Assembly: GCA_964036195.1 (NCBI GenBank)
Contig: OZ038450.1
Location: 6,946,701 to 7,010,700 of the forward strand
Length of the DNA: 64,000 nt
Reading direction: 5' to 3'
Source of the DNA: Sphaerolaimus hirsutus
Taxonomy: Eukaryota > Nematoda > Chromadorea > Monhysterida > Sphaerolaimidae
Shown piece by piece: positions 4,501 to 64,000 of this stretch; within the stretch, counting starts at the first letter, position 1; the number at the start of each line of letters is the position of its first letter. The translations under genes and the position numbers were made by a program. The notes beneath the pieces were generated by a model, which worked only from the letters and a program-made list of their open reading frames with translations, had not been told where the DNA came from and made no database searches.

Positions 4501-7500
4501 TTTGTGTGTGAGCTCAATAGCGACAGTTAAATTTCTACGATTTTTTACATTTGACAGAGAACGCACATAATTTGAGCCCTCTGCGTGTACGCTCGACCCA
4601 CAATTCCCATTTTAAAGCGCGTGGTGGGCCTCGAAATGTTCGTAAAAATCACGAGTTTGTATGGGGAAAACGGGGCGCGCGGCCTGCCAAAATTCGCGTG
4701 CAGTTTTAAGATGTAGGCTGGCGCGAGTGCGCGGAGTAACAGTGGCACTTGGGTCGGTGCCAATACGCACAGGAGTTTCTGCGCGCACTGTAGTTTACTA
4801 ACGGTAAACTGAGAATTTCGTAAACTCATTTTTCAGCTACCGAGCGCATCTGAGTTTACCGGAATGAGCTGACTGTCAACTAGTAGACGTGTGTACTAGT
4901 GTGGCCATTTCAGTTTTCACATCAGTCACGGTGCAAACTAGTGTGTGTAGGGCCAATGCGACACATGAAAACAATGCGGCATAAAAACATTGAGTTGACA
5001 ATACATGGGTGCCCTTGGCGCACCGCACACTGATTTTGGACGTTCAGCGTTCGAACGTTTGAAATCCGCTGAATTGTAACTCGAAATCTGCGGTTCGGAC
5101 GGTTTAAGTTCAGCGGTTGAGCGGTCGCCATATTGATTTTTCAAAACGTCCGGATGAATTCGGACAGATTTACATGCATTTTTGACCAGTTTTGGTCATT
5201 CGCTGAACTCGACATTTCAGCGCCGATCAAAATGAAAGTGTCCGAACACTTTTATCGGGCGGTTCAGCGTCGCAGTTCCGCATCGAGGTTCAGCGCCTGA
5301 GTCGAGTTCAGCGGACGAGCTACTGTTGTTAAATGATATGTATCTCATTCACAATGTGAGATACATTCATGAAATTTGAATACGTATAAGATTGACATTT
5401 TAGCTTCATAAAAGAAGAGAGAAATGTTTTTCCAAAAATCATTTATTTTAGAGTTTTTGCAAATTTTCACAAATGCATGAAATTTGAGTTCCGCGTCTGA
5501 ATCTCGTGAATCTCAAAACAACTGGAATCATAAACACCATGCTCAAAAAACGTCCGGATGGTCTGAATTCAGCAACAATCATAAGTAGGGTATTTATAAT
5601 TGAGACATAATTGAATTGAGATGGGGGGATCTGGATCAAATTTCAAACTGGACCAGTTTTTTGGGCAGAGACTGGGACCGGAACTTTTTGATAGGAATGG
5701 ACTGCAATTTTATCGGAAGTGCGACTGGGGTACCGGGACCAGGACTAAGTATTGGGGCTGCCAGGATTGAGATACCATGACAATTTTGCATACACAGTGA
5801 CGGAAGAGCGCCATGGCGCTGGCGCCAGTTGTGTGTGCCACGTCATGGCGCCCTAGGCGTTGGCACTGGCGCTGGCGCCAAAAATTCTATTGGTTGTGTC
5901 GTTCTATTGGAGGTGCCGTTCTATTGGAGGTATGCTGTTCTATTAGAAACAATATGGTAATCAAATCTCTCTGAAAAACAAATTACAATACCGTATTACC
6001 TCGAAATACCCCCAGGGGGTTTATTATTTCGCCAGCAAAATTTGAGGGGGGGATAATTCGAGGGGGGGGGGTCTATTATTTCGCCAGAAATTTTCGAAAA
6101 TTCCCCATACGCAGACGTAGAAAAATCGAACAATTACATAGATGTATGTGTGTTTATAGGCATCTATAACTGTATATATACACAAAAACCCTTCCCTAAC
6201 GTCACTTAATCATCAGTTTTAACGTGTGTTCTGCATTGTACAGAACACAAACTGCGGTATTTGTCATGTACGTTCACGTTACACTCAATTTTAGGGGGGG
6301 TATTTCGAGGGGGGGGGTTTATCATTTCCTCAGCCGAAATTTAGGGGGGTATTTCGAGGGGGGGGGGGTTAATTCGAGGTAATACGGTACATTACATTTG
6401 AAAATTGAAAAATTACATTACATTTGACACTTTACTTAACATTTGACTTGACACTTTACTTTACATTTGACATATGACTTAACACTTTACTTTACATTTG
6501 ACACTTTACTTTACACTTTACAGGGCTTGGGATTGGCACCTGGCGTGTCCCCTGTTTACATGATGCATTTGTTACTGCCAGTTTGCATTCCAGCTACACA
6601 TATAAACTGGTGGACAATTTAAATGGAAAATTGACTACATAAATTTTCGAAAAATTCTCATGTGCAAATGATCAGCCCAATCTAGCTAAAATTTTATGTG
6701 AATGTGGGGCCAACATTTCTTTACATTGTCCGCAAATGGCATCCCCCAGCACCCCCCTGGTTAGCCGTGACAGCCTTCTATATATTTTTTCCGATTTTTT
6801 TTTCTGGCCAATATAATTGGAAAATTTTGGAATCCCACTCAGAATATTGCTGCGGGAAAGCGCGCTGCCATTTTTGGCATGCTGCCAACACAAGCATTGG
6901 ATACGCTTGTGCTGGCAGTTTTTTGATGGAAAAAAAATCACTAATGGCTCGCTCAGAGCTGCACATAGGTTGCAGGGTGATTTTTACCCGCTGCTGTCCC
7001 CACACTGCTGCTGCCTCACAAAAATCCATCCTAAATTGCAGATATCAGCCACTTCATGACATTCAAACATATTAAGAACTTTATAAGTGCAAACATTTTG
7101 ATTGTGATTGCAAAAACCACAAATTTACACTTTCTGGGAATGACCTCTTCATCTGTCTGGCCCATTTACACAAAATACAGGACACATTTCCAGTTGTCCC
7201 CTGGTATATGTTTAACAGATAATTGTTGCCTGAATTCAATGGGCACTAGCATTTAATGATTTGCATGCAGATGCTGCAGAGGCCGGTCACGCTTTTACGG
7301 AAATGCTGTCTTTGAACAGTGGTATTTCCACTGATGGCCATAAATGCAATTTTCGTGCAACAATGTGGTGCAGGACCAGCCACATGTTGCTCATGACACT
7401 TAGGAAGCCAGTCCTGGCCACCATGTGCTGTATCATAAGCCTGGGGCTGTGTAAGACACATTAGTTCCAATATATGTTTTGTTCAAAAAAATATTTCAGG

Positions 7501-10500: not shown

Positions 10501-13157
10501 CGCGTACTGTTTGGACTTGTCTGCAGCCCAGCAAATTTGGGAGCAGTCATAAAATACCATTTAAATGTGACAATAAACAACATGAATGAATATGAAGAAA
10601 ATGAAGGGGAACGAAACCAGTTGGCGATGATAATAAACAACATTTACATCAATAACTTCATCATGAGTGTCACGAATGAAGTTGAAGCTTTAGAACTATA
10701 TTACAAAGTCAAAGCTTTATTTAACCAATGTTCTATGAACATGAGGGAATGGCTGTCAAACTCTAGATCAGTCATGAATGAAATAGCAGAAAACGACAGG
10801 AGTCCAAAGGTGAATAAAATTGTCGCAGTAATGGGCATGAAAAAAAATCACCGAACGGACATGCTGGCAATATCAACACCAAAATTGCAAATTGACAGCA
10901 TCAAAACACCAACCAGACAAAACTTGAATAAATTATTGGTGTCAGCATATGACCCAATTGGGTTCACAGCACCTGTTTCACTGACCCTGAAATGCCAGTT
11001 GTCAATGCTGCTCCAAGAGACAAAAACAACACAATGGGATGAGCCAATTGAAAATAAATACAGATTGGAAAAACAATGGAAAAATGCCAGAAAACTGTAA
11101 ATCAAGCCAGAAAATGGAAAAATGGCCTGGTAAAACGGAAACGGAAAGGTAAAAATTTTTCAGCCGGAAAACGGAAAAATGGGCCGGAAAAACGGAAACG
11201 GAAAGGTAAAAAATTTTCAGCTGCCGGAAAACGGAAAACGGAAAGGTAAAAAATTTTCGGCTGCTGGAAAACGGAAAACGGAAAGGTAAAAATTTTTCGG
11301 CTGCCGGAAAACGGAAAGGTTAAAAAATTTTCCTGCGGAAACGGAAAACGGAAACGGAAATTTGACACCCTAGTCGTGGCTGCATTACGTTCATTGCACG
11401 GTTGCATTGCACGTACTGCACACTGCGACACCAATCTACCTGAAATTCCGTTCTGCACCTGCACCATCTTATCTTTAAAGTTCAGTGTCAAATCTGAGTT
11501 CAGCGTTCGAGATCATTTCAGCGCACCAAATCGTCCGAATTTTTCACTCGCTGAATTGACAAACCACCCAATTTTAATCGTACGGACGATTTGGAGTTCA
11601 GCGCTTCTGTCGGTTCCGCGTTTTTAGTTCAGCGGATGTCAAAAAACGTTCGAACGCTGAACCTGAAAAGGCAGTGTGCGGTGCGCCATTTGGTGTGTGC
11701 CGCTCTGACCCCCAAAATGCAAATGTCAATTCTGACATCATAAACCATTCCAAGCCAAATTACGGTCAGGACACAACAAATAAAAAGTGCCCAAGCCATG
11801 TGCGGGGCTTGGGTTATGCTGTAGTGTATAAGTCACCGCTACGGAAAAACATACCCGAGTTGTGTTTTTCATTTCCGTCAACTAGTTGACAGTCAGCTCA
11901 TTCGGTGAACTCAAATGCATTCAAACCTGGTTTATGAGTGTTCGAAAATTCCGTTAAAACGAAACGAAACGTTAAGCCCGAAATAGCGAAATTCAAAAAG
12001 TGCCGCGGAATATAACTCAGTGGAGTCAAATCAACGCGGCTTTATTCTTCCGCAGGCTGGTGAGCACCGGTCAAGTTCAATAAGGAAATTGGCCGTTCAG
12101 GCGCTTGCGACGCTTCACAGGTCGTTGGGGCCACATACCGGTCATCTCTTGTTTCAACATTTGGCTTCCTGGCCCCCAAGCAAGGTTGTGCGAATTGCGT
12201 TTTGGGTTTGGTGCGGTTATGTGGAGTTGAAGCATGGGGATTGTACTGGGAATGTTTGTTATACGTTTCTACGGTTCAAACGAGACTTGGTTTTTGGACC
12301 GGGACTAGAATAGGGATAAAAGAGACGTTTTTTAACCACCCTGTTTTTAAAACAACGTTTTTAAACGTTTTTGTTACAAGACAACGTTTTTAAGCGTTCA
12401 AATATGGTTGTGAGACAGGTATATTAAACAGGTGCCAGTACTTTGTGAGTTATAGCCATAGAATGGTTGTGGAGCCATGGGGTATCATTATAGTAATCAT
12501 TTCTTTCGAAAGTATCCATTTTTATGTACGAGTACGTACTGTATAAATACTAAAAATTTGGGCCGCTATAAAAACTTATAAAAAACCAAAAACTGTGTTA
12601 AAATCAACGTTTGAAAAAACGTTTAAAAAACACCGGCCATCTCTACTAGGGTTACATTGGCGTACCGCACACTGAAATTTTGAGTTCAGCGTTCGAACGT
12701 TTTTGCACGCTGAACTACAAACGCTGAAATCAAAATCTAAAGGACACAAGGTTTTTGAAGCGTAAAAATTCGGAATTTGTAATTCTTCGCGTAATTTACA
12801 TTAGAGCCGAAATTTTTACGCTTCAAAAACGCTGTGTTCTTCAGATTTTGATTTTAAGCGTTTGTAGTTCAGCGTGCGAAAACGTTCGAACGCTGAACGC
12901 AAAATTTCAGTGTGTGGTGCGCCAATGTGTGTGAACCAAAACTGGGGTGTCGTTATGCAGAGGTTGCTAAAAGTGAGTAAGGAGGGTAAATTGGAAACAC
13001 TTAAACAGTCTAGTGAATTTTGTTAAATTTTCAAAATCATTATGGTAATAATTGTACCACTGCTTTATGCTTTATACCAATGTTTTTTTCTCAGGTGAAA
13101 CTGCTCGAAATTTACATTCGGAAGGCGGCCAGCGTATCTGTAGACAGTTTGATATGA
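1584..13157 (+). CDS. CLASP: CLASP microtubule plus-end binding protein, C-terminal part
   Basis: Exons read as 1584-1935, 2326-2532, 2974-3168, 3776-4043, 4127-4195, 12056-12184 and 13095-13157 (TGA). Every junction is phase-consistent and GT-AG. The first exon is Ser/Pro/Arg-rich and contains GVGIPHS, which resembles the SxIP-type linker of CLASPs. The rest is the C-terminal HEAT/TOG-like domain: WDEYFKTILCMLL matches the CLASP signature WDEHFKTILLLLL, VRAYAELCVLRVL matches the following helix, SSSIRKLAVQALATL matches ESSVRKACVFCL, and the last exon KLLEIYIRKA matches KLLNLYIKRA. CLASPs stabilise microtubules at plus ends and kinetochores, and this domain binds CLIP-type partners. The donor of exon 5 is GTTAGT; reading through it would give a false stop at 4202. 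The start of the first exon (1584 or 1628) is uncertain, and the N-terminal TOG domains lie upstream of the window. The 7.9-kb intron at 4196-12055 is filled with transposons. Confidence 0.9.
2625..2741. repeat. TACCGTATT-family palindromic MITE
   Basis: TACCGTATTACCTCGAAATA at the left is mirrored by TTCGAGGTAATACGGTA at the right. It lies in a CLASP intron. This family (ends TACCGTATT(A/T)CCTCGAA, then C-rich and G-rich stretches) is the commonest repeat of the window. Confidence 0.75.
2756..2892. repeat. GGCGCC-rich MITE
   Basis: It starts TAGTGACGG and ends CCATCACTA. The interior is a run of overlapping GGCGCC, GCGCCA and GCCATGGC palindromes. Other copies lie near 21209, 36022, 49038, 51460, 60125 and 60783. 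Confidence 0.7.
3391..3597. repeat. Hairpin MITE with TGCACACACTAGTTTACT ends
   Basis: Two arms of about 70 bp mirror each other almost base for base (TGCACACACTAGTTTACTAA versus TTAGTAAACTAGTGTGTGCA). It lies in the CLASP intron between 3169 and 3775. Confidence 0.75.
4373..4793. repeat. Inverted-repeat element in CLASP intron
   Basis: CTACAGTGCGCGCAG at the left is mirrored by CTGCGCGCACTGTAG at the right. Its outer words (GCGC...CACACACTA) resemble the ends of several other families here. It is followed at about 4930-5330 by a diverged element containing GCACCGCACACTG and repeated GTTCAGCG words. Confidence 0.5.
5989..6389. repeat. TACCGTATT-family MITE, 400 bp
   Basis: It begins TACCGTATTACCTCGAAATA and ends TTCGAGGTAATACGGTA. 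Runs of C then G flank the tips, and the middle holds TGTGTTCTGCATTGTACAGA-like sequence that recurs in copies at 22825, 24203 and 52053. Confidence 0.75.
6390..6545. repeat. Truncated copy of the introner-like family
   Basis: Tandem ACTTTACTTTACATTTGAC words end in ACAGGGCTTGGGATTGGCACC, which is one terminus of the family that interrupts coding exons elsewhere (15935, 49437, 51076). The other terminus is missing, apparently cut by the neighbouring TACCGTATT element. Confidence 0.6.
6602..7868. repeat. 1.27-kb inverted-repeat element
   Basis: CTGGTGGACAATTTAAATGG near 6607 is mirrored by CCATTTATATTGTCCACCAG near 7847-7866. The interior has no recognisable protein, so it is a non-autonomous element or a decayed transposon. 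Confidence 0.55.
7888..8610. mobile_element. hAT-like non-autonomous element with GGAAAACGGAAAGG arrays (short copy)
   Basis: It starts TAGGGTGTCAAA and ends TTTGACACCCTA, tips typical of hAT transposons. The flanks GTTGTGGT and GTTGCGAT agree at six of eight bases, as expected for an aged 8-bp duplication. Both ends carry tandem GGAAAACGGAAAGGTAAAA units in the same orientation. Sequence around 8316-8360 matches 11060-11110 in the longer copy, including the end of its BEL/Pao frame. Confidence 0.7.
8642..9172. repeat. 530-bp inverted-repeat element
   Basis: The left arm contains CCAACACGTCAATTTTGAAT and ATGGGAGTAGATAAATG. The right arm at about 9075-9165 carries their reverse complements. 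No gene is seen. Confidence 0.65.
9430..11373. mobile_element. hAT-like element carrying a captured BEL/Pao fragment (long copy)
   Basis: Tips are TAGGGTGTCAAA and TTTGACACCCTA, and an exact 8-bp duplication GTCGTGGC flanks both sides, which is diagnostic of the hAT superfamily. The two ends hold tandem CGGAAAACGGAAAGG arrays. Between them lies a fragment of a retrotransposon polyprotein (about 9880-11100) and no hAT transposase, so the element is non-autonomous and has picked up foreign sequence. Confidence 0.8.
9880..11100 (+). pseudogene. BEL/Pao retrotransposon pol fragment, inactive
   Basis: The frame at 10252-11100, preceded by 10058-10250 in another frame, reads as BEL/Pao reverse transcriptase. 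DQLEKGIIEI is the segment before the palm; YDGSAGKPSFNECLFRGP matches the Pao motif YD-S-K-G-SLND-L--GP; LIADIEKAFLQIGL is the first catalytic block. The YVDD box is replaced by IYINNF, so both catalytic aspartates are asparagine. A frameshift near 10250 and stops near 9987-10030 break it further. Protease, RNase H and integrase are missing. It ends in YRLEKQWKNARKL and runs straight into the GGAAAA arrays of the enclosing hAT-like element. It lies in the big CLASP intron on the same strand. Confidence 0.85.
11400..11695. repeat. Element with GCACACTG / CAGTGTGCGGTGCGCC ends
   Basis: Repeated TTCAGCG(C/T)TCGA words and the end CAGTGTGCGGTGCGCC relate it to 12653-12929 and to about 4990-5330. 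The arms are diverged. Confidence 0.45.
12653..12929. repeat. 277-bp hairpin element, ACATTGGCGTACCGCACACT ends
   Basis: The arms mirror each other over more than 100 bp: GTTCAGCGTTCGAACGTTTT on the left, AACGTTCGAACGCTGAAC on the right, with GTAGTTCAGCGTGC mirrored inside. It lies between the last two CLASP exons. Confidence 0.75.
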
Positions 13158-13794: not shown

Positions 13795-16700
13795 ATGAGC
13801 TACGCCCGCGTCGTCGCGACTGCAGCTGCGGGCCGACTCGACGAAACCGAACCGGAAGACCCGGCGCAATGGCGGCACACTCAGCCGGTCGACCCGCCGC
13901 CGGACTCGCGACCATTTTCCGATTCTAGTGCCATTCCGCCGGCTCAGGTTGTTCGGTTTACTACAGAGTGTTTTACTGTTGCTGGGGAAGTGCTGTGTGC
14001 GGTGGGGTTGGGGATTTCGATAATTTTTTTGTTCCATTTGTTTCAAAAAGATTCGGTATGGATCTTTGTTACATCTAATTTTTGGTTTCGATTCTGCGGT
14101 TTGTTATTTTCGGTTCCAAGGTCATTTCAATTTCGATTCCTGGTAAGACAATTATCAGGTCAAAAGGGGGTCCACAAGAATCACATGATGTACCTTATTG
14201 CTTATACACCGAATTATATATAGTTTCTACGTATTTTTAGCGATTTTTCTCCCTTCCTTCATAATGCACCTTGAAAAAGCATATGTTGACGTATATATTA
14301 CTATATTAGACTTCTATGTGACCTAAATATTTCATTTATTATAACCATTTCGAACATAGGTCGACGTAACTATCACCGCATCTGGGCACATAAGTATTGA
14401 GCCACGCGGGGTGCGGGAACAAGTGCCCATGGCCGTAGTAAACTCTGGGCAACTCGTTGGACAGAAGAAAAATGACAGGAAAGGAAAGAATAGACGCAAA
14501 GTGGGTAAAAGGGGTTTGTCGCGAAGATTTTTTTTTTAATTTGGTAGTTGTTATGACTAGGTGCTGGCCGGTGTTTTTTAAAACGTGTGTTTTTTAAAGA
14601 TGTTTAAACGACGTTGTTTTTCAACAAGCTCCTTAAAACGTTTTTTTTCAATCCTAGTTGTGACTTTTCCAAACTCTATTTTCCCTTCATACCCTGCATA
14701 ATCCTTGGTAATTAACAGCCGCACAAGTGCAACCCCCCCCCCCCTTCGCACAGTCTGATGCAATTGGAAGTACGACTGCGCACACGGCGGTAACTTTGCC
14801 CGCCAGCAAAACAGCGCTGGGATGGCTGCAGAAAGTCACAATTAGCCCGGCGGCGCAATGCGTTATTTATGCGCACGCAAATTCTATAGAAACTGAAGAG
14901 GTGGCTGGGCTACTTATTGGTCATTTTGATAAAGAAAAAGGTGCGTTATGTTAACCGGGTTTTGGATACATTTTTTGTGCTGATACTGATTACTTAATCA
15001 CCTTTTTTCATTTAATTTTGCAACAACATTCGCACTGGTGGAAATAAAATACCTACATGCAACGTGCCGCAGAGTTGCAAAATTAACCGTACCATTTGTC
15101 AACTTGTCAAATTTGTCAACGTTACCCGTACCGTACCGTTTGCCGTACCGTACCGTTTAACTACAATCCGTTTACCTACCATTCGCCACTCAAATCATAC
15201 TCATTTTATTTGTCCACATCCAGGCGTCGTGCACGTACACTGCGCCATGCCGACGGTTCGCGTGGACAAGCGGCCGGATAGGGTGGAAATCGACCCGGCC
15301 GACATGTCGCGCTGCAGACTGCACTGCGACAAGCTCGGCGAGCGCTTCAAGCTGCTCGGTTGGTACCACAGCCATCCGAACGGCATCCCCGTGCACCCGT
15401 CCAGCGTGAGTCCCTAGAGCCGTGTTCGAGACCGACATTAAATGAAAATGCATTCGCGTTCACTTCCACAATGATTTACGCAGTGCTTTCAGCAAAAACA
15501 TGCAGTTTTCAGAGACAAAATTGCTACAAAAAGGGTGAAATTTTATTCATATACAGCAAATATATGAGTAAAATTATTAAAATTGAAAATAACCGACTTT
15601 CATGCTATGGCAAGGCAATGCTCTACAGTAATTAGATGAACAGAGACGACAAGTGGCGTGGCCATCATTTTTTATCATATTTTAGTTTCATGTTTACAAT
15701 TCTGAGAAAATAGTGATTTTGAGAAAATGTAATCAGATATAATCTCAGATTATGTCCCAAAACCAAAAACAATCATCCGTGTATGACAATTTGCATATCG
15801 CTGATATTGATTTCAGTATCACCGAAGGTCCAAAGTCGTAAAATTAATAAAAAATAGAGTTACAAAATACAGGTCGACTGCCGAATGCAAAAGCAATGGG
15901 AAACGAGCGTGTGCAGCGACGGCGATTCAGCCTGGTGCCATTCCCAGACCCTGTAAAATGTCAAATGTCATGCAAAGTGTCAAAAGTCACGTAAAATGTC
16001 CGGTAAAATGGCAAACGTACGTTGACACTTTGCATGACATTAGATATTTTACAGGGTCTGGGACTGCCCCCAGGGTGGGCATCATCGTAGCGCCCGGCCC
16101 GGCGACACGAGCGCCAAACAGCCCCGGCGCCAGTGCGACCAACGTTTTTGAGACTGCCATGATCGCTTTTGTTTCCGCCGGTGGCCACGATCAGACCGAC
16201 GCGCTGAACGAATTGCAGCGCGCTGATATTAGTGAGGGAGAAGTAAGTGAAGGGTTTGGTCTGTGATTTATAAATACCGTATTACCTCGAAATACCCCCA
16301 TGGGGGTATTATTATTAAATTTGTAAACGTAGGTAGCTAGCTACACACTAGTCTATGTGTAGCTGCTATGCAAATTAGTAATAAATACATTATGTACATT
16401 GCATACGTGATGTAAACACCTTCCCGGTCACGTCCGGCACCCATTTGTTGATTTTACTTCTCACATCCTATACCCAGTTCTAGGGTGCCGCAGAGGCTGA
16501 AACTTGGGGGAGATATTGGCGCAACCCCCCTCTACCTCGCATGAACTAGGGGGGTCGCGGAGACCCCTCTCAGGGTGGGTCGCCGCGACCCCCCTAATTC
16601 ATGCGAGGTAGAGGGGGGTTGCGCCAATATCTCCCCCAAGTTTCAGCTTCTGGCGCGCCCTAGAACTGGCGATAGGGTGTCACAAGTACGATCAAAAATA

Positions 16701-17599
16701 GGGTGCCGGACGTGACCGGGAAGGTGTTTAGATCATTCCTTAAGGGGGAATATTTCGAGGGGGGGTCATTAGAGGGGGCATAATTCGAGGTAATACGGTA
16801 GTCGAGTATGGTGTCAAAAAAATTTTACGGAATAAGAAAAGGTAAAAAAATTCATATGGCGGAAAACGGAGGGGGGCGCCACCCCCCCTCCGTTCGCCGG
16901 ACTACAATCCGCCCCCCACTTTATAATCCTGGCTACGTTTCTGCTCATCACATTACATTCAGTCAACAAATTTCACGCAGTTCGACGCGCGCCTAGCTGC
17001 CAGCGAGCAAATGCACCACTGCGAGTACCGTCTGATCCCTTTGCGCATATCGCGATTTGAAAACTCCGCCCATTATAAGCAACAATTGGTCGACGGGCTG
17101 CAGTCTGTGTCCAAAGTTGTATTGGAAGAAAACAGGCGCATGTTTGATGCGGTGAATAATGATTGGGTGAATTCGAATTTGGTTGGTTTGAATGTTTTAA
17201 TTGCGTGTCGGGTTTTTTTGTGTCGTCTCCGATGAATAAGAGTGACCTTTTGTCCACCACTTTTCAAAGCATCGTCTATCTAGAATTTGAACAGATCAAA
17301 ATACGTCGTTCAAAAAATCCAAAAAGTGGGGTATAGAGTAAGAAAAATGTTAAAATACTAAAGTTCTCAATAGCATCAATAATCGAGTTAATTCTGATTA
17401 ATTTGAATTTTTACAACGACCCCGATTTTAAAAATTAGTTTGCTCTTTTGCCTGATCATCGAACAGCTTCTACCTGGCGCAGAACTGGGAGGACACCTCA
17501 CGGGAACAACAGAGCGTGTACAACACGTTGGCGCTGAGATACGAGCGCCTGGTCAGTCGACCCTTGATGCGGCAAGTGAACGAGCATTTTGCTAGTTGA
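13795..17599 (+). CDS. BRCC3: BRCC36-type JAMM/MPN+ deubiquitinase
   Basis: Exons: 13795-13947 (ATG), 14360-14500, 14754-14940, 15224-15405, 15873-15934, 16074-16242, 16981-17181, 17483-17599 (TGA). All phases agree. BRCC36 is the zinc metalloprotease that cleaves Lys63-linked ubiquitin in the BRCA1-A and BRISC complexes. The MPN core is clear: VDKRPDRVEIDP matches human SDKRKDRVEISP, LLGWYHSHPNGIPVHPSS carries the zinc-binding HSHP with the downstream Pro-Ser, and VGIIVAP follows. IPLRISRFENS and the helical end NWEDTSREQQSVYNTLALRY match the C-terminal region that pairs with Abraxas. The first two exons form a hydrophilic N-terminal extension not seen in the human protein. The sixth exon also carries an Ala/Ser-rich insertion. 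The intron 15935-16073 is a transposon (separate entry). The acceptor of the last exon is set at 17482 because the upstream AG at 17466 breaks the frame. AATAAA occurs near 17782. Confidence 0.88.
15935..16073 (+). mobile_element. Introner-like MITE acting as an intron of BRCC36
   Basis: The 139-bp piece starts GTGCCATTCCCAGACCCTG and ends CAGGGTCTGGGACTGCCCCCAG, with ATGCAAAGTGTCAA mirrored inside. It sits in the middle of the JAMM domain. Unspliced, it gives an in-frame TAA within its first 30 bp. Removing it tip to tip (GT...AG) joins GATTCAGCCTG to GGTGGGC and reads DSAWVGIIVAP, the conserved strand after the active site. Splice donor and acceptor are both supplied by the element tips. 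Confidence 0.82.
16275..16800. repeat. TACCGTATT-family MITE with two nested hairpins
   Basis: The outer tips are TACCGTATTACCTCGAAATA and TTCGAGGTAATACGGTA. Inside, GGTCACGTCCGGCACCC (about 16425) mirrors GGGTGCCGGACGTGACC (about 16702). Inside that, TGAAACTTGGGGGAGATATT (about 16498) mirrors AATATCTCCCCCAAGTTTCA (about 16627). Three elements appear inserted into each other in a BRCC36 intron. Confidence 0.7.
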
Positions 17600-18747: not shown

Positions 18748-18941
18748 AGGGGGCACTCCTAGACCCTGTTAAGTGCACTGCAAAATGTCAAATATCATGC
18801 AAAGTGTCAAAAGTCATGAAAAATGCCCTGCAAAATGGCAACCGAGTTGGCATTTTGCAGGGCATTATCCATGATTTTTGACACTTTGCGTGACATTTGA
18901 CATTTTACAGGGCACTCTTCGGGGTCTGGGAGTGGCACCCA
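18748..18941. repeat. Introner-family MITE, intergenic copy
   Basis: Left tip GGGGGCACTCCTAGACCCTG, right tip GGGTCTGGGAGTGGCACCC, with TTGACACTTTGCGTGACATT inside. It belongs to the family spliced from BRCC36 and the lectin gene, here outside any gene I can see. Confidence 0.7.
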
Positions 18942-19106: not shown

Positions 19107-21069
19107 TCAATACGGCACTGCAAAATAATTGGGTGTATAATAGCCGGGGTATCCGTAAAAATTACTCTGCTGCACATATGGCTGCGGGAACCGGTAAGAG
19201 TTCGGGTCGGGTATCACTGGTCGGTTATAACCGTAGTCGGACGAAAATCTGGGCCACCCTGTAATTTAGAATAGGTTTTATTTTTGGCGTTACCGTAACT
19301 GATTAATTGTTCCTGCCGCAATTTGCCATGTTAAGTGTGTCATGACCCTGTGAAACTCCTCATCAAATGTCTAATTTCGCATAAACACGGAACATTTCCT
19401 TTTTATTTCAATTTTTCGCTATGAACTCAACAACCAGTTTGAAGGGCCACAGAAAAATTCTAGGGTTCAATTTCTCCAGTTCACCGTGTATCGAAAAAGG
19501 GAGCTTTTCCAGCATACTGTATTTTTAATTAAAAAGCCGTCTAGCCCTGAAACTGACTCACCACTGTCTAGCGGCACATACTGGGGCACCATGGCGCTGG
19601 GCGGCACTATTTGACCGCGCTGGTACGGCGCCCAGTGCACGTTGTGGCCGTAGCCGCCGTAGGCTTGATTGCCGTACTGCATTCGCATGAGCTGTTGTCG
19701 CTGCCCCTGCATGAACTGCTGTCGCTGCAGTTGCATTCGGTTCTGTTGCTGCGACGGCGGCGCTCGCCCTCCCGCGGCGGCGGCGCTATGTGGTTGTGCA
19801 GTCGCCCCGGGTGCGTACGCGCTGTTTTGAGGTGCCGGTTTCGGTGCGAGCACCGGTGGCGGTGTCGCGATTGCGCTCGGTTCCGGTGCCGTAACCACGT
19901 ATAAGACTGGTGCCACGACCCCGTAGGGGTTTTCGTGACCGCGTCCTCGAAATTGCGACCTGTGAGTTGTGATGAATGGATGGCTATTCGGTTCAAATAT
20001 ACGCTGACCTAGGAGGCGTGTTAATAGGGTTCAAGCGGGATCCCGAAATATTTCTGGATTTTGCGGTCCGATCCCGGTTCCAAAAACTCCAAAAAACAAT
20101 CCCGATCCCGAAAATACAATTCCGTCTGAAACCTGACGGAAAATATGGAGCCATCTGTGCATTTGCGCTGGTACTGCAAACAGCCATTTTAAACGCTCTA
20201 CTCGCGCTACACTTAATTCTAGCTCTCAAATATACAAAAAATTGATGATGAATTTTTTTGTAATTACCTACCAGTATGGGTGTGGGTCGGGGAGCTCCAG
20301 GGGTGTCGGGGTCTTGTTGGGTGGGACCGCATTGTTTGCCGGTCGCGAGTTGCCTGCGATTTTACCTCAATAGTACACTGTTTGCTCATTTCGTTGGCCA
20401 GGTGCCAGTTCCGCAAATTGAGAAGTGAAATGGCAAAAGCGAAGTGAAATGGCAAAAGTGAAGTGAAATGGCAGGGAAATTGGCAAAGGCGTGGTAAAGA
20501 AATAAAAAGTAATTACTCTTCGCTTTTGCCATTTCACTTTGCATTTGCCAATTTACTGCCCATTACTCAATTTTCGGAACTGGCACCTGGTGAATTTTGA
20601 ATACCCTTATGTTTTACAGTCTTCCAAGCTATTACTTCGGGTACATCCGCACTTTTTTGCTTTGCCGCTAGGCATGCATCCATGGAAAATTAATGTAATC
20701 TTCACTTGAAATGCGCATTTTCAACTAAAAATACAAAAAAATTCGAAAACACTTCCGAATTTTTCTAGAAAGAAAATAGATTTAAGGTGTTTCTCAGTTG
20801 AATGTAAAAACTCGAAAACTCAAAAAAAAATTCAAATTCGAAAACGTTTTCGAATTTTTGTTTGCCACCGTTACCCACAGCGCGGTCCCTGAAGCTCACC
20901 TGCACTATAGCCATTTGCGTCGGCGTCGGGAGCGATGACCACCATTCCATGGGGTTCCGATTTCTTATCGACCGCAATCGGAATTAGGTAGGTCGGTTTC
21001 GGTTTCCGTACAATTTCCGGTGTCTTTGTCGGTGCCGCTGCCCTCGCTGTCGTTCTCGATAAAGAATTG
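19107..21069 (-). CDS. Unrecognised Pro/Gln/Tyr-rich protein, C-terminal four exons
   Basis: On the minus strand the exons are 21069-20900, 20353-20272, 19959-19562 and 19258-19107 (TGA). All junctions are phase-consistent, with donors GTGAGC, GTAGGT and GTGAGT and clean CAG acceptors. The product starts mid-protein. It contains KPTYLIPIAVDKKSEPHG, a short segment ending HPYW, FRGRGHENPYG, a Pro/Ala-rich region, a Gln/Arg/Met-rich stretch (QQQNRMQLQRQQFMQGQRQQ), and a Tyr/Pro/Gln-rich tail ending FAVPY. Such composition is typical of disordered RNA-binding or scaffold proteins, but I recognise no family. A polyadenylation word AATAAA lies on this strand near 19053. The upstream exon must end in phase 2 and was not found; the last visible Twist exon ends in phase 0, so this is not a simple continuation of Twist. 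Exon 21069-20900 is also open in another frame (beginning QFFIENDSEG, stop after 34 codons) that would fit phase 0 from Twist. Confidence 0.6.
20398..20590. repeat. MITE with CCAGGTGCCAGTTCCGCA ends
   Basis: Left tip CCAGGTGCCAGTTCCGCA is mirrored by TTCGGAACTGGCACCTGG. Internal words are AGTGAAATGGCAAAAG and their complements. The outer tip is nearly the same as that of the introner-like family (GGTGCCAGTCCC), so the two are sister families. It lies in an intron of the minus-strand gene. Confidence 0.75.
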
Positions 21070-27711: not shown

Positions 27712-27961
27712 GATCGGCAATAAAGTTTAATGTAAACAAAACGCACTGGATGCGTAATGCAATCGATTCGGCGAAAAGCCTAAATTCAATCTCAAGACAG
27801 AAATGCCCATAACTACCGTAACCCAGTCGGACAGAAGTGCACATCAGTAGAGCTCCATTTGCTAGAGTTGACAACACTGATTGTTTAAATTGAAGAGGCT
27901 TTCAAAAACAAATTGAGTTTTCGTTTTACAAGTACCTTATTTCCCCGAAATCCCCCCAAGG

Positions 27962-28439
27962 GGCAGTCCCAAGCCCTGTAAAGTGTAAAGTAAAGTGTCA
28001 AATGTAAAGTCAAATGCAAAGTCAAATGTCAAAAAAAAGTAAAGTGTGAAATGTAAAGTCAAATGCAAAATCAAATGCAAAGTCAAATGTCAAATGTAAA
28101 GTAAAGTGTCAAATGTAAAGTAAAGTGTCAAATGTAAAGTAAAGTGTCAATTGTGTATCCAAATCTTATTTTTTGTATCCAAATCTTATTTTTTTGTATC
28201 CAAATCTTATTTTTCGACATAAGCTTTTGATACGACAATAAAGATATGGATACACAATTGACACTTTACTTTACGTTTGACACTTTACTTTACATTTGAC
28301 ATTTGAATTTGCATTTCACTTTACATTTGACAATTTACTTCACATTTGACAATTTACTTTACATTTGACATTTGACTTTGCATTTGACTTTACATTTGAC
28401 ACTTTACTTTACACTTTACAGGGCTTGGGATTGCCACCA
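27962..28439. repeat. Introner-family MITE, long hairpin copy
   Basis: Tips GGGGCAGTCCCAAGCCCTGT and ACAGGGCTTGGGATTGCCACC. Both arms are about 200 bp of AAAGTAAAGTGTCAAATGT repeats, and the centre has TGTATCCAAATCTTATTTTT three times. It lies inside the C-run of the MITE at 27932. Confidence 0.75.
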
Positions 28440-31993: not shown

Positions 31994-32139
31994 AAGTGCA
32001 CCTTTAAAACTTCACACTATCACTGCCATGATCTGTCACACAGAGCAGATTCAGCAATGCTTTCAGCTGACACTCATCTGGTACACTGTTTTATCTGTGT
32101 TGAGCCCACAGGCTCAATAAGTGCACTTCATAAGCACTA

Positions 32140-37154: not shown

Positions 37155-37318
37155 TCGCACGATTGAACCCGTAATTGTCATGTTTCAATGTAGGACTCTC
37201 ACTGAACGTGACGATGCAACGTCGCTGTCTTACACAGTTCAGGGCCTTTCGCCGAAAGACCCAATGGACAATTTTTGGTGCCCTCTTGGTGTTTTAGCCA
37301 ATGGGGAGATGCTTTCCT
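37155..37318 (+). pseudogene. Unrecognised coding-like fragment
   Basis: An open stretch reads HRTIEPVIVMFQCRTLTERD and later LSPKDPMDNFWCPLGVLANG before a stop at about 37318. Composition is protein-like but no family is recognised and no neighbouring exon fits. A GTAAGT follows at about 37322. Confidence 0.25.
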
Positions 37319-44100: not shown

Positions 44101-47100
44101 AATCCAAGAGAAAATTAAGCATAATTCAAGCCCTTTTCTGGTGTATTCATGTTTGTTCATGTAAAAATTGCATTATACATACCTATTATAATGGACCAAC
44201 TGTGAAGAGATTTACAGGGTCATGCAGATGGCAGCTTCACAATATGGTCACATGCATCTAGATTCTGCCAGGCTAATCATATTTACTTTCAAAAAAGCAA
44301 AGCTACATTGCAAAGTATTAAGATACAGCACACCTGCAGTATGTATGTTAGATGAAAAGTGTATGTATTATGTGGCACTTTTGTGCGGATTCTGTATTAT
44401 TTTTGCTGGGATTATGTTTGATTTTGGGTGCAAAGGTGTGAAGCAGAGTTGTGCAAATACTGGTATTTTTGGAAAACGTAAACGTAAACGTAAATACCTT
44501 TTCCAAATCAAAAGTATAAATACTAAAACGTAAGGTATTTTTAAAATACCAAGGAATACGTAAAAAAAAACGTAAACGTAAAATTTTTACACACAGTAGG
44601 TATTTGCCATTGTGCTTTGGAAAATACCATTATTTTCACATTTAGATGGGTCAATCGCTCCATCCGCACCACTTTCTGTTGTATGTGCGGCCAAATCCAA
44701 CTACGTTGGTGATTCTGGGTGAGTCCCAGACCCTGTAAAATGCCTTGTAAAATGTCAAATGGCATGCAAAGTGTCTAAGTCATGGAAAATGCCCTGGAAG
44801 GTGGCAAAACTTTGCCATTTTGCTGGGCATTTTACATGAGTTATGACATTTGCATGAAAATTTACATTTTACAGGGCATCCTACAGAGTCTGGGATTGGC
44901 ACCAGAGCTTGCACTCGCCCTGCCAGTTTCAAAACATGTGCTACTCACAGTTGTTGCAAGTGGCGTCATTGGAATTCATCACAAAAATTTATAAACACAA
45001 GGCTCCACAAACAAAAAGGTTTCTGTGTTCAGCATTTGAACACATTTATGAATATGTACCCAGTATTCCATGTGTAAGTGAAAGCGTGCAGTCACTTTTT
45101 TCATACATCGTTTTTTTGTATGTATTTATACATGTTAAGTTTATGCAAAAACATTAGAATATTGTTGGCTGCAGATGGTGCGGCCCATTTGACCATGTGC
45201 ACGTGTGAACGATCATAAGTTTTGTTACGTTTTCCCTAGTACCCGGGTATTTTGGTCAGGAAAACGTAACAAAACGTAATGGTATTTTTGGAAAACGTAA
45301 ACGTAAACGTAAGTATAAATACACGAATAACCGAATATTTCGGGTAAAAGTAAATACGTTTTTCCAACTCTGGTGTGAAGTACTTTTGCTTGGATTTTGC
45401 AGCAATCTAGGAAGGATTTTGCACAATTTTGTGCTTGAATTTTGCCTGATTTGATTATGCACACTTGGATCAAGGTACAGACTTTATTTTTTCAAAAACA
45501 CAACGTCCAGCGCCATAGCCATAGAAGCGACGAGAAACTACGTGGTTGAAGTGTTTCAGATGCAGATCTCAATAATTTAAAGCAAGAGATAGGTAGCTAA
45601 TTCACAAACTATTCACTACACAGGAAACACTATGGCAAAGCAACAATGGACGCCTGGAACGACAATGAAAAATGGAGCAAATGCGCATTTGTAGATGGAC
45701 GCGTGAGGGGATCAAGCCCATCGAACCCCAAACAAAGTGGATATTATGGAGATTGGATTACACAATTTGTGCCACATTTGAGTGAGAATGAGCTGAAGAA
45801 AAAGCCAGATGTAGAGTTTCAGATACCAGTTTCAGCGTGGGCAGGTGGTATGTTGGAGGGCGCGGTGCAGCGGTGTATTTTATTCACTGATGTATTATAT
45901 TTATAGTCGGCGGACCGCATGCTATGCATTTTTCAAAAGGAAACACTCCATCATGACGTCATCATAAATAAAATAATAATAATTCCAGCAAATAAGAAAA
46001 AACATTTCGGTAAAAAATATTTCTCATTTGTATGCGACTCCGCCACTTTCTTTTTTAAAATATTTTTCTTTTTGTGAAAGTGCATACGTAAGTATCCCGC
46101 TTGCGCACTATCGACCAAGACATAAATAATTTTGGGTGCATACTTAAAGCCAGAGTTACAGCATAACGATAAATAGAAGGTGAAGCGACAAATACATGTC
46201 GCCGCAAATTCGATTACTCAAGAACGCTTAACGATATCCATCCCTAAATTGACATGTTGACAGCACTAACTGATATCTGCATCGTGTCCAAAAATTTCTC
46301 GTTGAGATTGCCGACATATAGCGAAATTTTCGTTTTTCATTGATATCTCAAGAACCATTGGAGCGTTTTGGATAATTTTTGGACAAGATGTAGATATCAG
46401 TTAATGCTGTCAACGTGTCAATTTAGGGATGAATATTGTAAACCGTTCTTGACTAATCGAATTTGCGGCTACATGTGAAGGGTGTGCTTCTAAAAGTACC
46501 GATCTACAAATTTTTCAAATTTGAGTTAGGACCATTTTTGGGGTCCCCATAAACATGCGCTTCAAAAAAATATATATTATGTGGGGGGTGCGAAATTCAA
46601 TTTTGCGATATGGGGGGTCGAAAAAAGCAAAAAAAATCGCAAAATACGGTTTTTGAAATTTTAAAAGTACCGATCTACAAGCTTTTTCAGCTTTTGTGTC
46701 TTTAAAAGTACCGATCTACACACTTTTTTCGAAATTGTTCTTTTAAATGTACCGATCTGCACATTATTTTTTGTGCTTCTGAAAGTACCGAAGTCAGATC
46801 GGCGTCTGATTCAGCAAAAACTCGTTTTGTGCTTTTTTATTATGGGTAAAAGTACCGATCTACAGCTGTCTGATTTTGTGCTTTAAAAAATACCGATCTA
46901 CATGCTATTACCAATTTGTTCCTTTAAAATGTACTGTACTACAAAAGTATAATTCACTAAATTTTATATAGCTAGTGTTATGTGTATAATCAATGATTAT
47001 ACACATGCATGTGGATACCCAACAATATGGCCGAAATACCCATACCCAAAATTCCCATACCCAATACCCATGTATGGGTATTGCATACTCCAAACTTTCA

Positions 47101-50100
47101 ATTGCGATTATCTCAAAATCGATTTTTTGTAGATCGGTACTTTTAGAAGCACACCCTTCATGTATTTGTCGCTTCACCTTCTATTTATCGTTATGCTGTA
47201 ACTCCGGTTTAATAAGTTATTATTCTTTTTGAACATGTTGACACAAAAAAATTTTAGTTGCGTTCAATTTTTGAATAAGCCATTTTGGGGAATGTAAAGA
47301 CTGGGGTTCAAATTAGTCTCTGGTTTCAGTTTCAGTTTCGACAAAATGTGAAGAATCCTTTGTCTTTGTGTTGGTTTCGATGCCTGGTCTCGATCTCAGT
47401 TTAAAAAACATTGTCTTTTGAACCCTTATTGCGACGGCTCAAATATTTAGGAACTCAGGAAGCTTAATAGAGCAATGCTAGACTGTAATAACTCAATCTG
47501 TTGCTGAACGTTTAATTGCTCTTCACCGTACTTACCTACCTAGGTATGTTCGTTTTGTCCCCACAAAATCTCGGGCCAGTTCCGCACATATTTTCCACTC
47601 GTGGAACCAGCACCAGGAGGCAGTAACAAAGTGTCAAATGTGTATCCAAATATTATGTTCCTGTATCCAAATCTTATGTTTGATAATAAGATCTAGATAC
47701 AAAAACATACAGTTTGGATACACAGTTGAGACTTTGGGACTGCCCCCTGGTGCTGGTTACACAAGTTGAAAAATAAAGAGTAAAGTAAAAAGTAAAGAGT
47801 AAAGCCAAGAGTAAAGCGAAGAGTGAAGCGTAAAGTGTTCCATTTTACTTTACTTTACCACCTGCGGAACTGGCCTCGGCTCATCAAATTTTCTATTAAA
47901 TCACATTTAATGTAAACCTTTTTCGATGAGTGGTGTCAACCCGACGGCGATGGCGACCCGCCAGAGAGCTGCGCGTGTCTGGCCTACGCTAGTAAAGCGT
48001 TAGAGGACAGCCACTGCAGACAGTGGGAATGGATTGGTTGCCAGTGGAGCAGGGGTCAGTTCGTTAGCTTGTGCATGAAACATTTTTACGTGATTCGGCC
48101 GTGGTATGTGACTAAATTTTTTTGTAAAGGTGGATTTACAGCACAACAACAAATAAAAGGTGAAACGTCAAATAAAACGGCACCGATAAATTCATTAACT
48201 ACGTGTTTTAGAGTTTTTTATTCAAACTTAGTGTTCGATACTCGAATTAGAATGAAACATTTTGAATATGGGAGAGGTCTAATTCGAATTTGAATGAAAA
48301 ACTTTCGATGAAAAATGGCCCACCTGCAAATCAATTAACCGTTGACACCCTAAAATCAATTTGTCGTCGGTCATTGCATGCAATGATCACCGACAAATGA
48401 ATTTAGGGCGTCAACGTGAAAATGATTTGTTGTGAACCATTGTTCATCCAATGTTTTTCATTCAAATTCGAATTTAAGATCTACCATGGGCCAGTTCCGC
48501 AAAATGAGAAGTGAGAAGTGAAATGCCAACGGCAAAGTAAAAGCGCAAATGCGAAGTGAAATGGCAAGTGAACTGAGAAGAAAATTGGCAAAAGCGAAGG
48601 GAAATTACTTTTTCCTTTTATTTTTTCACTTCACTATTGCCAATTCTCTTGCCATTTCACTTCGCCTTTGCGCTTTGACTTCGCCTTTGCCATTTCACTT
48701 CTCATTTTGCGGAACTGGCACCAGAAGGTACATTTTTCATTCAAATTCGAGTATTGAACATTGATTTTCAATAAAAAATTTGAAAACATGCAAATAATGA
48801 ATTTATCGGTGACGTTTTATTTGTCGTTTCACCTTTTATTTGTCGTTGTGCTGTAAATCCACCTTAAAAGTTGGCTTAACAAAAAAATTATCTATAAATA
48901 CCGTTCTGGTAAATTTGCTGAAACATTTAGGGCCGATTTGCCCAAGAAAACGACAATTTAAATGTAGCAAATGAGCGGAAACATGTAATGTGCCGATTTA
49001 ATGTGGAAAATCTGCTTACCGAAGTTGTTGGCTTCTGTAGTGATGGAATGACGCCACGGCACTGGCGCCACTGTGGCGCCGTTAGCGGCGATTCACAACC
49101 TCTTTCAAATGGCACTTGGCGCCATTTTTCGGATTGCGCCAGCCCCCATGGTTCCCTATTTTCTGGCGCTTTTCCAACACTACTTCTAAGTATGCTGTAG
49201 AAATAAAGGTGAATATTAAAAAATGATACATGCACGTAGTTTAAAAAACAACTATTGATGTCACTCACACCACCATTTCAGAAATGCCGAGATTTTGCGT
49301 CCCGCTGAAGAGCGAACCATGGCGCTGTTTCAAACTGAAGCAAACTGTGGTGAAGAACTACCATCCGATAATAGGGCACTTGGATGCGAACGAATTCCAC
49401 GCTAGGGAGTGCCACGATCGCACGCCCGGCCGCCTGGTGCCAATCCCAGACCCTGTGAAGTACAAAGTGAAGTGTCAAATGTCATGCAAAGTGTCAATTG
49501 TCAAAGTAGCATGACAAATGTAAAGTGTCAATTGTAAAGCAAAGTTCATTAATAATATCTTTACTTTTTTGTTTAGATTAACATTTTGCATGACATTTGA
49601 CACTTTACTTTACACTTTACAGGGTCTGGGACTGTCCCGGCCAACGTGGACTCTTGGGAGGCGCTCACCCTGGCCAATCAGCTCATTGCAGCGATGCAGA
49701 TAACCCCGGAAAAGGTTTTCAAGCATGTCCAAACCATTTTTTTGCAATTGGCTCTTACTAAGTGGGACCACTTAGGGTGTGCGCATGGCAACCTTGGACC
49801 ACTTCCACTAGAGACAAAGTAAAATGACAAATGATAGAAGCAAAATAATTTAACGAATGGTGGGTGAAGAGTAAAGTAAAGAAAAAAGTTTAAAGTTGAG
49901 AGTAAAGTGAAAAATTAAAAGTAGAGTAAAACTCCTATCACCGAATTCTTTACTTTTTTCTCTTCAATACATTTTCTTGTCATTTGCCATTTGTCTTCAA
50001 TTTTTTTTAGTGTACCCTTAACTTCGTTTTTAATCATTCGTTATTTCATTTTGCCTCTAGCGGAATCGGCACTAGAGCAGACTATCTGCTTTTCTGAGTA

Positions 50101-53100
50101 AAATATTTAACCTTCTCCATTTTGTGGAAGTCGACGAAATATTTGATAAAATTTATAAAACCCCAATTATGCAACAAGTCAAGTGACAAAAAAAGGGGTG
50201 GGGGGATAATTGTTTATTGTGTGTCATGGTGAAAAGATACAAGAAGAAACACGCAAGTAAGATCTTTGAACGACAACAGTAAGTTTTTAGATTGCAGCGT
50301 ACGCGTTCATCGATCTCCCTAGTAACCCCCCCCCCTAAACATTTACCTATACAGGGTGCGGCAATTTAGACAGACGCTCAGGATTTCAAATAACTCATTA
50401 CTGGGTGGTCGGATTAACGTCACATTTTAGGTCAACATTAACAACTAAATAGGAAAGGATCCCTGAAAATATGGCTGCGATAGCTTTACTCGTTCTCAAG
50501 TTATTCATGCAAACACCAATGTGTCGCTTTACTACCACCCCGTGATAGGTTTCAAACGGAATTCAGTTTTCAGGACCCGGGTCGGGATCGGGATTGTTTT
50601 TTTCACATTTTTCTCCCTTTATTTTCGCAGCGGCATGTCAAAATGCGCGCGCGCGCCACTAATCCGCCTTACCGATAAGGAAATCGGCAGACACTTGCGT
50701 AGTTGGTTGTAAAGCAAGGTAGTAAGTAGTAAGGCGACAATTCTTGGTGTTTGCGTGAACAACTTGAGAACGAGTGGAGCTATCGCAGCCATATTTTCAG
50801 GGATACTTTTCTATTTAGTTGTTAATGTTGACCTAAAATTTGACGTTAATCCGACCACCCAGTGACGAGTTATTTGAAATATAGAGCGTCCGTCTAAATT
50901 GCCGCACCCTGTACATCTGTGAATTCTTCGATGCAATAAAGCATTAATAAGAAGCCAAAGGCCAGAATGAAGCCAAGTTCCCCAGCCATAGATTTGGGCA
51001 TGTCTAGAACGAATGCATCCTAATCGACGGGGCGCCGTGGTTCTTCGACGGCACGGCGGCTAACAGGGAAGCCAGGTGCCAGTCCCAGACTCTGTAAAAT
51101 GACTTGTAAAATGTCAAATGTCAAGTGTCGAAGGTCATGTACATACCCTGTAACGTGACACATGTACGCTTGCTGTAAAGTGACAAAAGTACAGGGGATT
51201 TTATATGACCTTAAACACTTTGCATTTGACGTTTTACAGGGAATTTTACAGGGTCTGGGACTGCTCCAGGTTCAACCCGTCAATCAACAAGGAAGATTGG
51301 CGCGCGGGCGGCGCGACCAAATTATCTCCTAAATATGCCAACATGAGCAAGCAAATGCCCGATTTCTGGGCGCCCGGTGCGTTTCAGGATCGATCACACA
51401 GGAATTGAAAAAAACTGGTTGTAAAATGGCGTTAAAATTAGCGGCGTTAATGTCTCAAACGTTCTGGCGCCTAGCGCCTTTTCAACTAAAATTGCGCCAT
51501 GACGCTTTTCCGAACACCAGCGCCAATAGCGCCAGAGAAAAATGGCGACAGGCGCCATGGCGCTTTTTGCTGTGGCGCTAGCGCCAAGTGACAAAGGAGG
51601 TAATTATGAAATGTCTTAAGTGATAAGAAAAGATGTGCCACTTGACGACGCAGTGCCAGTTTATTCCGAAGGATCGCCTACTGCCAGCAACAATAACTGG
51701 ACAACATAATATTTACAGGTAAAAAGTGTAATTATTTTACCAAATGCAGGGCAGCCAGACAATAACGGCATTCACCAGACCTGTGCGTGCATATCTACAA
51801 CCGAGGGACAATTCCATGACTGGAAATGCGACTTGGATTGGAACCACATTCTATGCGAATACAACACTCGTTTGTATTACGGTATTTGTTCGAATCTCCC
51901 CTTGAATCGACCACCCTCGAATTAGTCCGGTTGAATCGACCACCCTCGAATTTCCCCCTTTGTATCGACCCCCATGTATGCGATGTATAATAGATAATGT
52001 ATTAATTGCTGCCAATTTGCATTGCAGCTACACATGTCCACACAAATATAGGTACCGTATTTCCTCGAAATACCCCCAGGGGGTTTATTTTTTCAGAGTG
52101 GAAATTTTTAGAGAAAAACGTGAAAAATGCAAGAATAACCACCATTTATAAGTTTTTACAGCCTTATATAAGGATGTAGATGGTATAAACGATGTTCTAA
52201 CGTAACACAGTAAGTGTTTTGAACGTCTGTTATGAATTTCCCGGACCACAAATACATAGTGCCTATTTTGAGGGGGGTATTTCGAGGGGGGGGGGTATTT
52301 CGAGGAAATACGGTATCCTGTTTTGAAACATTTATAACCTGTTCTGGGTATGTAAAAGATATTCTTGCTTTACTATGATACTTCACGAAAATTTCTGACG
52401 AAATAGTAAACCCTTTCGAATAACCCCCCCCCCCCCTCAAAATTTGCTGGCGATAACTTAGGCCCAGGAATACAAGAATATGCCATATCGCAGCGGTGGC
52501 AGTTTGGGGCAAGAAGTTTCACTACCAACACGACTGGCTTTTTCTTAAATGTCGCACTGAAGACCCCGCGGCTTGGAACGAACACGTGTGGACCACCTGC
52601 GAAGGAATGAAAAATAATTTGATTGAGTACTACTGCCCATGTGAGTGAATGAACTTGGCTCCGTTTTCATGACACCGGCTATTTTTTTGGCTACTATTCC
52701 ACAGAGTTGCAAAAGCGTAGTTACGCTTAGCTAAAATACCCAGGTATGTATGCTTACGCGTACGCTTTCATAAAATACCCTTACGCTTTATTACGCTTTC
52801 CTGACCGAAAAACCCGGGTACTGAGAAGCGTAAATTTTTTTTGCAAATTCGCAAAGTACATGGTGAAACAGTGCTGCAAATTTCAGCTGCGGTTTAAAAA
52901 AACCATCTCTATGCATGTGATTTACCATAAAAATGCTCGCCATCCCTGCAGTTATTCTCAATGCTTTCAATGGTTGCATTTTTTTAATAAATTTTTTTTA
53001 ACGGTTTAAAAAAACTCCAGTCATCCCTAGTTATCAAGTTTTTTTACATGGACATATCTATCATTCTACACGGTAAATTTACACCCCTAAACATTCACAA

Positions 53101-63892: not shown

Positions 63893-64000
63893 GGGGGCAG
63901 TTCCGCACCCTGTAAAATGTAAAGTGTCTGATAAATGGTCGAAAAAATTTGCGTGAAGCTTGACGTTTTGTGTGATTACTACGGTGTGTGATGTATTTTA
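63893..64000. repeat. Introner-family or sister MITE, cut by the window end
   Basis: GGGGGCAGTTCCGCACCCTGT followed by AAAATGTAAAGTGTC. The tip combines GGGGGCAGT with TTCCGC, joining the two sister families. It lies in an XPR1 intron. Confidence 0.6.

Follow-up and report, generated by a model that had tools for sequence, protein, structure and literature searches.

Apparent intron gain from a small transposon in a nematode genome: a MITE with a CWG target as the probable intron of BRCC36

The origin of new introns is a long-standing question. Introners have been reported in 175 of 3,325 genomes, with Micromonas, Aureococcus, Symbiodinium and others, copepods included, among their hosts (PMC9860276), and a nematode intron survey addresses the lack of success in finding the sequences from which introns arose (PMC9169325). 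No nematode introner was found in a literature search at the level of titles and abstracts, subscription papers and preprints lying outside it. A stretch of 64,000 nucleotides from the nematode Sphaerolaimus hirsutus (hereafter the window) poses the question at a single locus. In a preliminary description of the window it was proposed that a miniature inverted-repeat transposable element (MITE) is the exact intron inside the JAMM domain of a BRCC36 gene, that its tips provide both splice sites and that the intron was gained by transposition. Does a transposon act as an intron here, and by what route could it have become one?

The DNA is eukaryotic, and the region of 14.8-17.6 kb encodes a BRCC36-type JAMM protein. 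The closest solved relative of the gene product is DrBRCC36 (5cw6; 2.4e-17), with the next family (Rpn11-like) at 6.6e-8; Pfam JAB is matched at 3.6e-16, and four relatives were found in the protein set (top 8.3e-13), one gene accounting for two of them as isoforms. The features of the locus, all on the plus strand, are as follows.

14802..14940, plus: BRCC36 exon, 5' limit provisional
15224..15405, plus: BRCC36 exon with the HSHP-PSS JAMM residues, from homology and reading frame
15873..15934, plus: BRCC36 exon ending in the residues DSAW, from the exact junction
15932..15934, plus: left target copy of copy A, CTG, which remains in the exon
15935..16070, plus: MITE or candidate introner, copy A, 136 nt; GT tip GTGCCATTCCCAGACCCTG, GG tip (inward) GGGGCAGTCCCAGACCCTG
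15935..16073, plus: putative BRCC36 intron, GTGCCA..CCCCAG, 139 nt, phase 2, from exact rejoining
15953..16054, plus: stretch with the inner pair GTAAAATG / TTTTACAG at its two ends, within the hairpin stem of the fold
16071..16073, plus: right target copy of copy A, now CAG, source of the acceptor AG, from the target duplication rule of the genome copies
16074..16242, plus: BRCC36 exon beginning with (W)VGIIVAP, from the exact junction

The JAMM loop at 15360-15405 has one residue more between HSH and the S of PSS, reading HSHPNGIPVHPSSVD where the relatives have HSHPNLTVWPSHVD. The next BRCC36 intron contains an inverted repeat at 16408-16735 with 89% complementary arms and a 10-nt loop; it is a different element, and its ends do not coincide with splice sites.

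Joining of position 15934 to 16074 restores the conserved JAMM strand as DSAW/VGIIVAP, the W/V junction falling at the site where the four relatives carry F or L and then V/I-G-L-I-F, and the C-terminal parts are still alignable to the relatives. None of the other treatments tried has this effect. Shifts of the junctions by one or two nucleotides destroy the strand; use of the inner GTAAAATG and TTTTACAG sites leaves 37 nt in the message and loses the frame; an outer donor joined to the inner acceptor also loses the strand; and retention yields DSAWCHSQTL and a stop, six codons past the exon. With GT and AG ends and a restored frame, the stretch has the form of a U2-type GT-AG intron, and its splicing is predicted. 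The proposals that the element, as 136 nt plus a 3-nt target copy, is the exact intron of the domain, that its removal restores the strand and that reading through it meets a stop were thus borne out in the sequence of this locus. Copy A is also a strong hairpin: its inverted arms (15928-15983 and 16022-16077) are 56 nt long and 89% complementary, and its RNA fold of -77.1 kcal/mol (z -13.1) was equalled in stability by none of 200 shuffles.

The assembly of the same genome (348,482,957 bases in 762 contigs) was searched for relatives of this element. Copy A as query gave 2640 first-look candidates, of which 40 were scored, and 29 other fetched copies were 79-93% identical to it; the family is therefore not a very recent burst. 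A search of the whole genome for the tip, as suggested in the preliminary description, gave 2501 exact 19-nt GT tips (0 for the reversed control), whether in exons or elsewhere, and seven Pfam-verified exon junctions are described below; the exact tip was absent from viral contigs. The tips were preceded by CAG in 1119 cases and by CTG in 980, in total 2099, so that CWG stands before 83.9% of the GT tips as compared with 2.9% of the trinucleotides of the window.

Copies of both kinds were read to their far ends, namely the 70 of the 1119 CAG copies that come first along contig C1 and, among the 980 CTG copies, 20 of the 22 that head the list (one was passed over and one is copy D of the window). 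A far end was recognisable in 66 of the 70 and in 16 of the 20. The far target copy of the 66 CAG-left elements was CAG in 50, CTG in 6 and another triplet in 10, and that of the 16 CTG-left elements was CTG in 13, CAG in 2 and another in 1, so that left and right copies agree (Fisher p 4e-8, 'other' rows excluded) and are unequal in 8 of the 71 scorable pairs. Because the left and right CWG copies match, the family generates a 3-bp CWG target duplication. A 5-bp CCNGG duplication, considered from the few window copies, was dropped since the genome copies show the 3-bp CWG. The sets of 70 and 30 loci are not fully independent, as L097/L098, L009/L013/L014 and L016/L017 seem to be duplicates; loci L031-L041 were fetched and left out of every count. 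The flanks of 62 folded copies have an exon-like GC of 0.57-0.59, as against 0.42 in random 60-mers of the window.

The target rule suggests how such an insertion would become an intron. The element inserts at CAG or CTG and lies with its GTGCCA tip after the left target copy and its ..GCCCC end before the right one; a CAG target gives CAG/GTGCCA on the left and CCCC-CAG/ on the right, the length removed being the length added. The 5' GT would then come from the element and the 3' AG from the duplicated target. Hence the proposal that the tips supply both splice sites holds for the GT, which belongs to the element, and fails for the AG, which belongs to the target copy. In BRCC36 the target was probably CTG originally, as part of a Trp codon where the relatives have F or L. 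Since the two target copies are now unequal (CTG and CAG), the acceptor probably arose by a later T-to-A change of the right copy, which would have turned CTG into CAG and given a normal GT-AG intron. The proposed gain by transposition is strongly supported by the genome-wide family, its 3-bp target duplication and the exact rejoining of domains elsewhere, with the reservation that the differing target copies make the BRCC36 insertion less than spotless.

Exact rejoining was assessed with 40 joined peptides from 39 loci, chosen by eye as likely coding and submitted to Pfam in four batches of 10. A match above the cut-off spanned the junction in seven peptides, from six conserved genes:

L006: DExH helicase, ResIII 2.1e-8, target copies CAG/CAG
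L027: DMAP1, 1.6e-13, CAG/AAG
L054: Oscp1, 3.4e-19, CAG/CAG
L069: cadherin, 5.2e-9, CAG/CAG
L101: ABCF gene, ABC_tran 1.2e-11, CAG/CAG
L118: Oscp1, 4.4e-17, CTG/CTG
L121: chondroitin GalNAc-transferase, CHGN 2.4e-11, CTG/CTG

The other 33 peptides gave no above-cut-off match across the junction, so that most loci could not be judged; the match lay only beside the junction in L047, L082, L087 and L109 and, below the cut-off, in L025 and L066, and the remainder were without a match. A match of L119 to Pfam nec1 (17.2 bits against a cut-off of 27) was taken as chance. Open-frame length across the junction was discarded as evidence, random 190-nt deletions from the window giving a median of 67 codons (best of three frames).

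The joined L101 peptide aligns with bacterial YheS at 1e-38 without a gap across the junction, which is also covered by the alignments to ARB1 (2.1e-34) and ABCF1 (8.2e-34). L054 and L118 lie 0.8 kb apart in a single OSCP1 gene (G000:C1:3592144-3593278), one with a CAG and one with a CTG target and both in the sense direction; 0.3 kb upstream there is a third tip of the GT kind, which points the other way. L066 (C1:7115717) and L128 (C1:7109906) are zinc-finger segments related to each other and separated by 5.8 kb, either paralogues or repeats of one gene, and are reciprocal: each has the element where the exon of the other is continuous. The L066 exon is continuous at the L128 site in a DNA alignment of 87 columns at 74%, and the L128 exon at the L066 site, which that alignment does not reach, as judged from a comparison of peptides (DGIFR^CVCC with DGYYRCSCC).

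The window contains eight recognisable copies of the family, of which two fall within one lectin-like gene. Besides copy A, these and the other features are as follows.

6390..6539, minus: copy G, one recognisable tip, no coding context found
18750..18938, minus: copy B, no coding context found
27960..28437, minus: copy F, longer, no coding context found in a scan of the minus strand
37221..37307, plus: SmY spliceosomal RNA, 44 bits (gathering score 39)
44717..44902, minus: copy C, no coding context found
49282..51876, plus: C-type-lectin-like gene, exons set by eye at about 49284-49436, 49640-49714, 51008-51075, 51270-51376 and 51750-51876
49437..49639, plus: copy D with right CCG, ends GT..CG, PGRL/ANV joined in frame; this half of the gene is without independent homology
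51076..51269, plus: copy E with right CAG, putative GT-AG intron of the lectin-like gene, CCAG/GTGCCA..CTCCAG/GTTC
63893..64000, plus: copy H, GG tip, passing the window end, from sequence

The five eye-set exons of the lectin-like gene form one common open frame, and C-type lectins make up all 25 sequences that its last exons match at E<=10, though the matches are weak (best E 0.019); the gene had no Pfam match and no relative in a set of 5.8 billion proteins, and the copy D half alone matched nothing relevant. An AG 21 nt downstream of copy D would preserve the frame but lose ANVDSWE. Pfam scans around copies B, C, F (minus strand) and G detected no family spanning the element, and five of the eight copies, these four and copy H, are without a found coding context, the scans covering the four. 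A second inverted-repeat element at 20401-20587 has related tips (GGTGCCAGTTCCG) and CCA before both ends, and is perhaps a sister family. Long open frames at 10174-11100 (plus) and 29399-32011 (minus) are retrotransposon-like, pol- and gag-like by eye; a helix-loop-helix domain lies at 26460-26612 (minus; Pfam 1.7e-15), and a tRNA scan found none. SmY RNA is described as specific to nematodes, among which it can be detected in clades III, IV and V alone (PMC11229312), and is likewise termed nematode-specific in PMC5006418; its presence in the window makes a nematode host probable in its own right.

Hairpins were folded for 62 of the 90 copies read, and their mean energy is -0.575 kcal/nt, as compared with -0.248 in 60 segments taken from the window. 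Of the 62, 39 carry the inner GTAAA together with TTTACAG, and in 35 of these 39 both sites are base-paired, while the last three nucleotides are unpaired in 59 copies and the first two in 53. Pairing of the inner decoys within a hairpin that leaves the outer ends open and close together would favour tip-to-tip splicing, and the fold may thus steer splicing to the tips.

Several other accounts of the locus were weighed against removal of the element as an intron. Splicing at the inner GTAAAATG..TTTTACAG pair, with the outer arms turning exonic, might be expected as that pair resembles ordinary splice sites more than the tips do (by eye); we regard it as highly improbable, however, given the frame that it would destroy in BRCC36 with 37 extra nucleotides, the pairing of both inner sites in nearly all copies that have them, and the seven Pfam loci, in which the domain is restored by joining tip to tip, the one joint tried at them. 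That BRCC36 is a broken gene and the element merely an exonic insertion would agree with the JAMM loop being one residue longer (HSHPNGIPVHPSS), yet an open frame on either side requires removal of the element, the C-terminal parts still align, and the same precision is found in ABCF, OSCP1, DMAP1, the DExH helicase, cadherin and CHGN; we consider this account extremely unlikely. An equally remote chance is given to an old, pre-existing intron nearly all of which the MITE later replaced. Elements do enter old introns, as the unrelated repeat with 159-nt arms in the next BRCC36 intron illustrates, but after a replacement one would expect ends that do not belong to the element, whereas the ends of intron and element coincide at BRCC36 and at other loci, with target duplications, and the zinc-finger segments L066 and L128 provide reciprocal empty sites.

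Programmed DNA elimination occurs in some nematodes, and the element could be cut out of somatic DNA, as the internal eliminated sequences of ciliates are, with one target copy left behind and canonical splice sites made irrelevant. Removal with a single target copy left fits the verified exonic copies, including the CTG copies without AG, and antisense frames at L011 and L131 look coding-like by eye, though neither matched Pfam. Against this, the GT tip is 5' in the gene sense in 10 of the 10 Pfam-matched loci of the positional CAG and CTG sets (L047, L054, L066, which is below the Pfam cut-off, L069, L082, L087, L101, L109, L118 and L121), where only sense peptides were submitted. In 39 other loci an antisense Pfam scan gave no family, but neither did a sense scan of these loci, and the pair is uninformative. 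Since all ten have the same orientation, RNA splicing is favoured over an excision that is blind to orientation, and somatic excision is held to be very unlikely. The element is therefore read, with high confidence and on the evidence of genomic sequence, as an introner, that is a non-autonomous DNA transposon (MITE) that duplicates a 3-bp CWG target and would be spliced from tip to tip.

The CTG copies present a puzzle for this reading. A far end of CTG, as in 13 of 16, provides no 3' AG of the U2-type GT-AG kind, and such copies nevertheless interrupt conserved exons exactly in OSCP1 (L118) and the chondroitin GalNAc-transferase (L121), with more in frames coding-like by eye and without a Pfam match (L115, L117, L124 and L130). 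Either these copies are spliced as GT-TG introns, or the genes are damaged, or the element is removed otherwise than by splicing. Our tentative suggestion, to which we give slightly less than an even chance, is that both targets yield working introns, CAG a GT-AG intron and CTG a precisely spliced GT-TG intron, with the hairpin hiding decoys and holding the ends. Judged by its title, a paper by Aroian et al. 1993 (cited in PMC10946897) makes acceptors other than AG less surprising for a nematode. In some tunicate genomes 95% of introns escape GT/AG (PMC13326754), whereas in the present genome, from a different phylum, only the CTG class would.

Among the features by which introners are recognised, the family has many similar predicted introns whose similarity reaches both splice sites, terminal inverted repeats with a target duplication, and insertion in exons with the coding sequence unchanged on removal. 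A design with splice sites of mixed origin is reportedly described for introners by Huff et al. 2016. The introners of PMC9860276 likewise form families of similar introns, some with terminal inverted repeats and short target duplications, and some take one splice site from the element and the other from the target copy, leaving the spliced exon mostly unchanged; the present family differs in its nematode host, its 3-bp CWG target, its thousands of tips and its second class ending in TG at a CTG target. The introner elements of Amoebophrya are also hairpin introns with inverted repeats, with direct repeats of 3-5 nt at the exon borders and many non-canonical ends, but their ends are very variable and no family-specific inverted-repeat motif was detected among them, where the present family has a fixed GT tip and a CWG target (PMC7789003). 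A 5'-CWG-3' target duplication is shared with the NuwaI group of the PHIS (PIF/Harbinger-like) superfamily, found mainly in animals, the likeness being one of target site alone (PMC4482050).

Introners as such are already known, and what appears to be new here is a probable nematode family that targets CWG and has 3' ends of two classes. A transposon seems to be supplying the genome of this worm with introns. If the CTG copies are indeed spliced, about a thousand CTG-type tips would mean that non-AG 3' ends are used on a genomic scale in a worm, and the CAG and CTG classes form a natural experiment on the need for a 3' AG. With thousands of related insertions at a defined 3-bp target, intron gain, splicing efficiency and selection become directly measurable.
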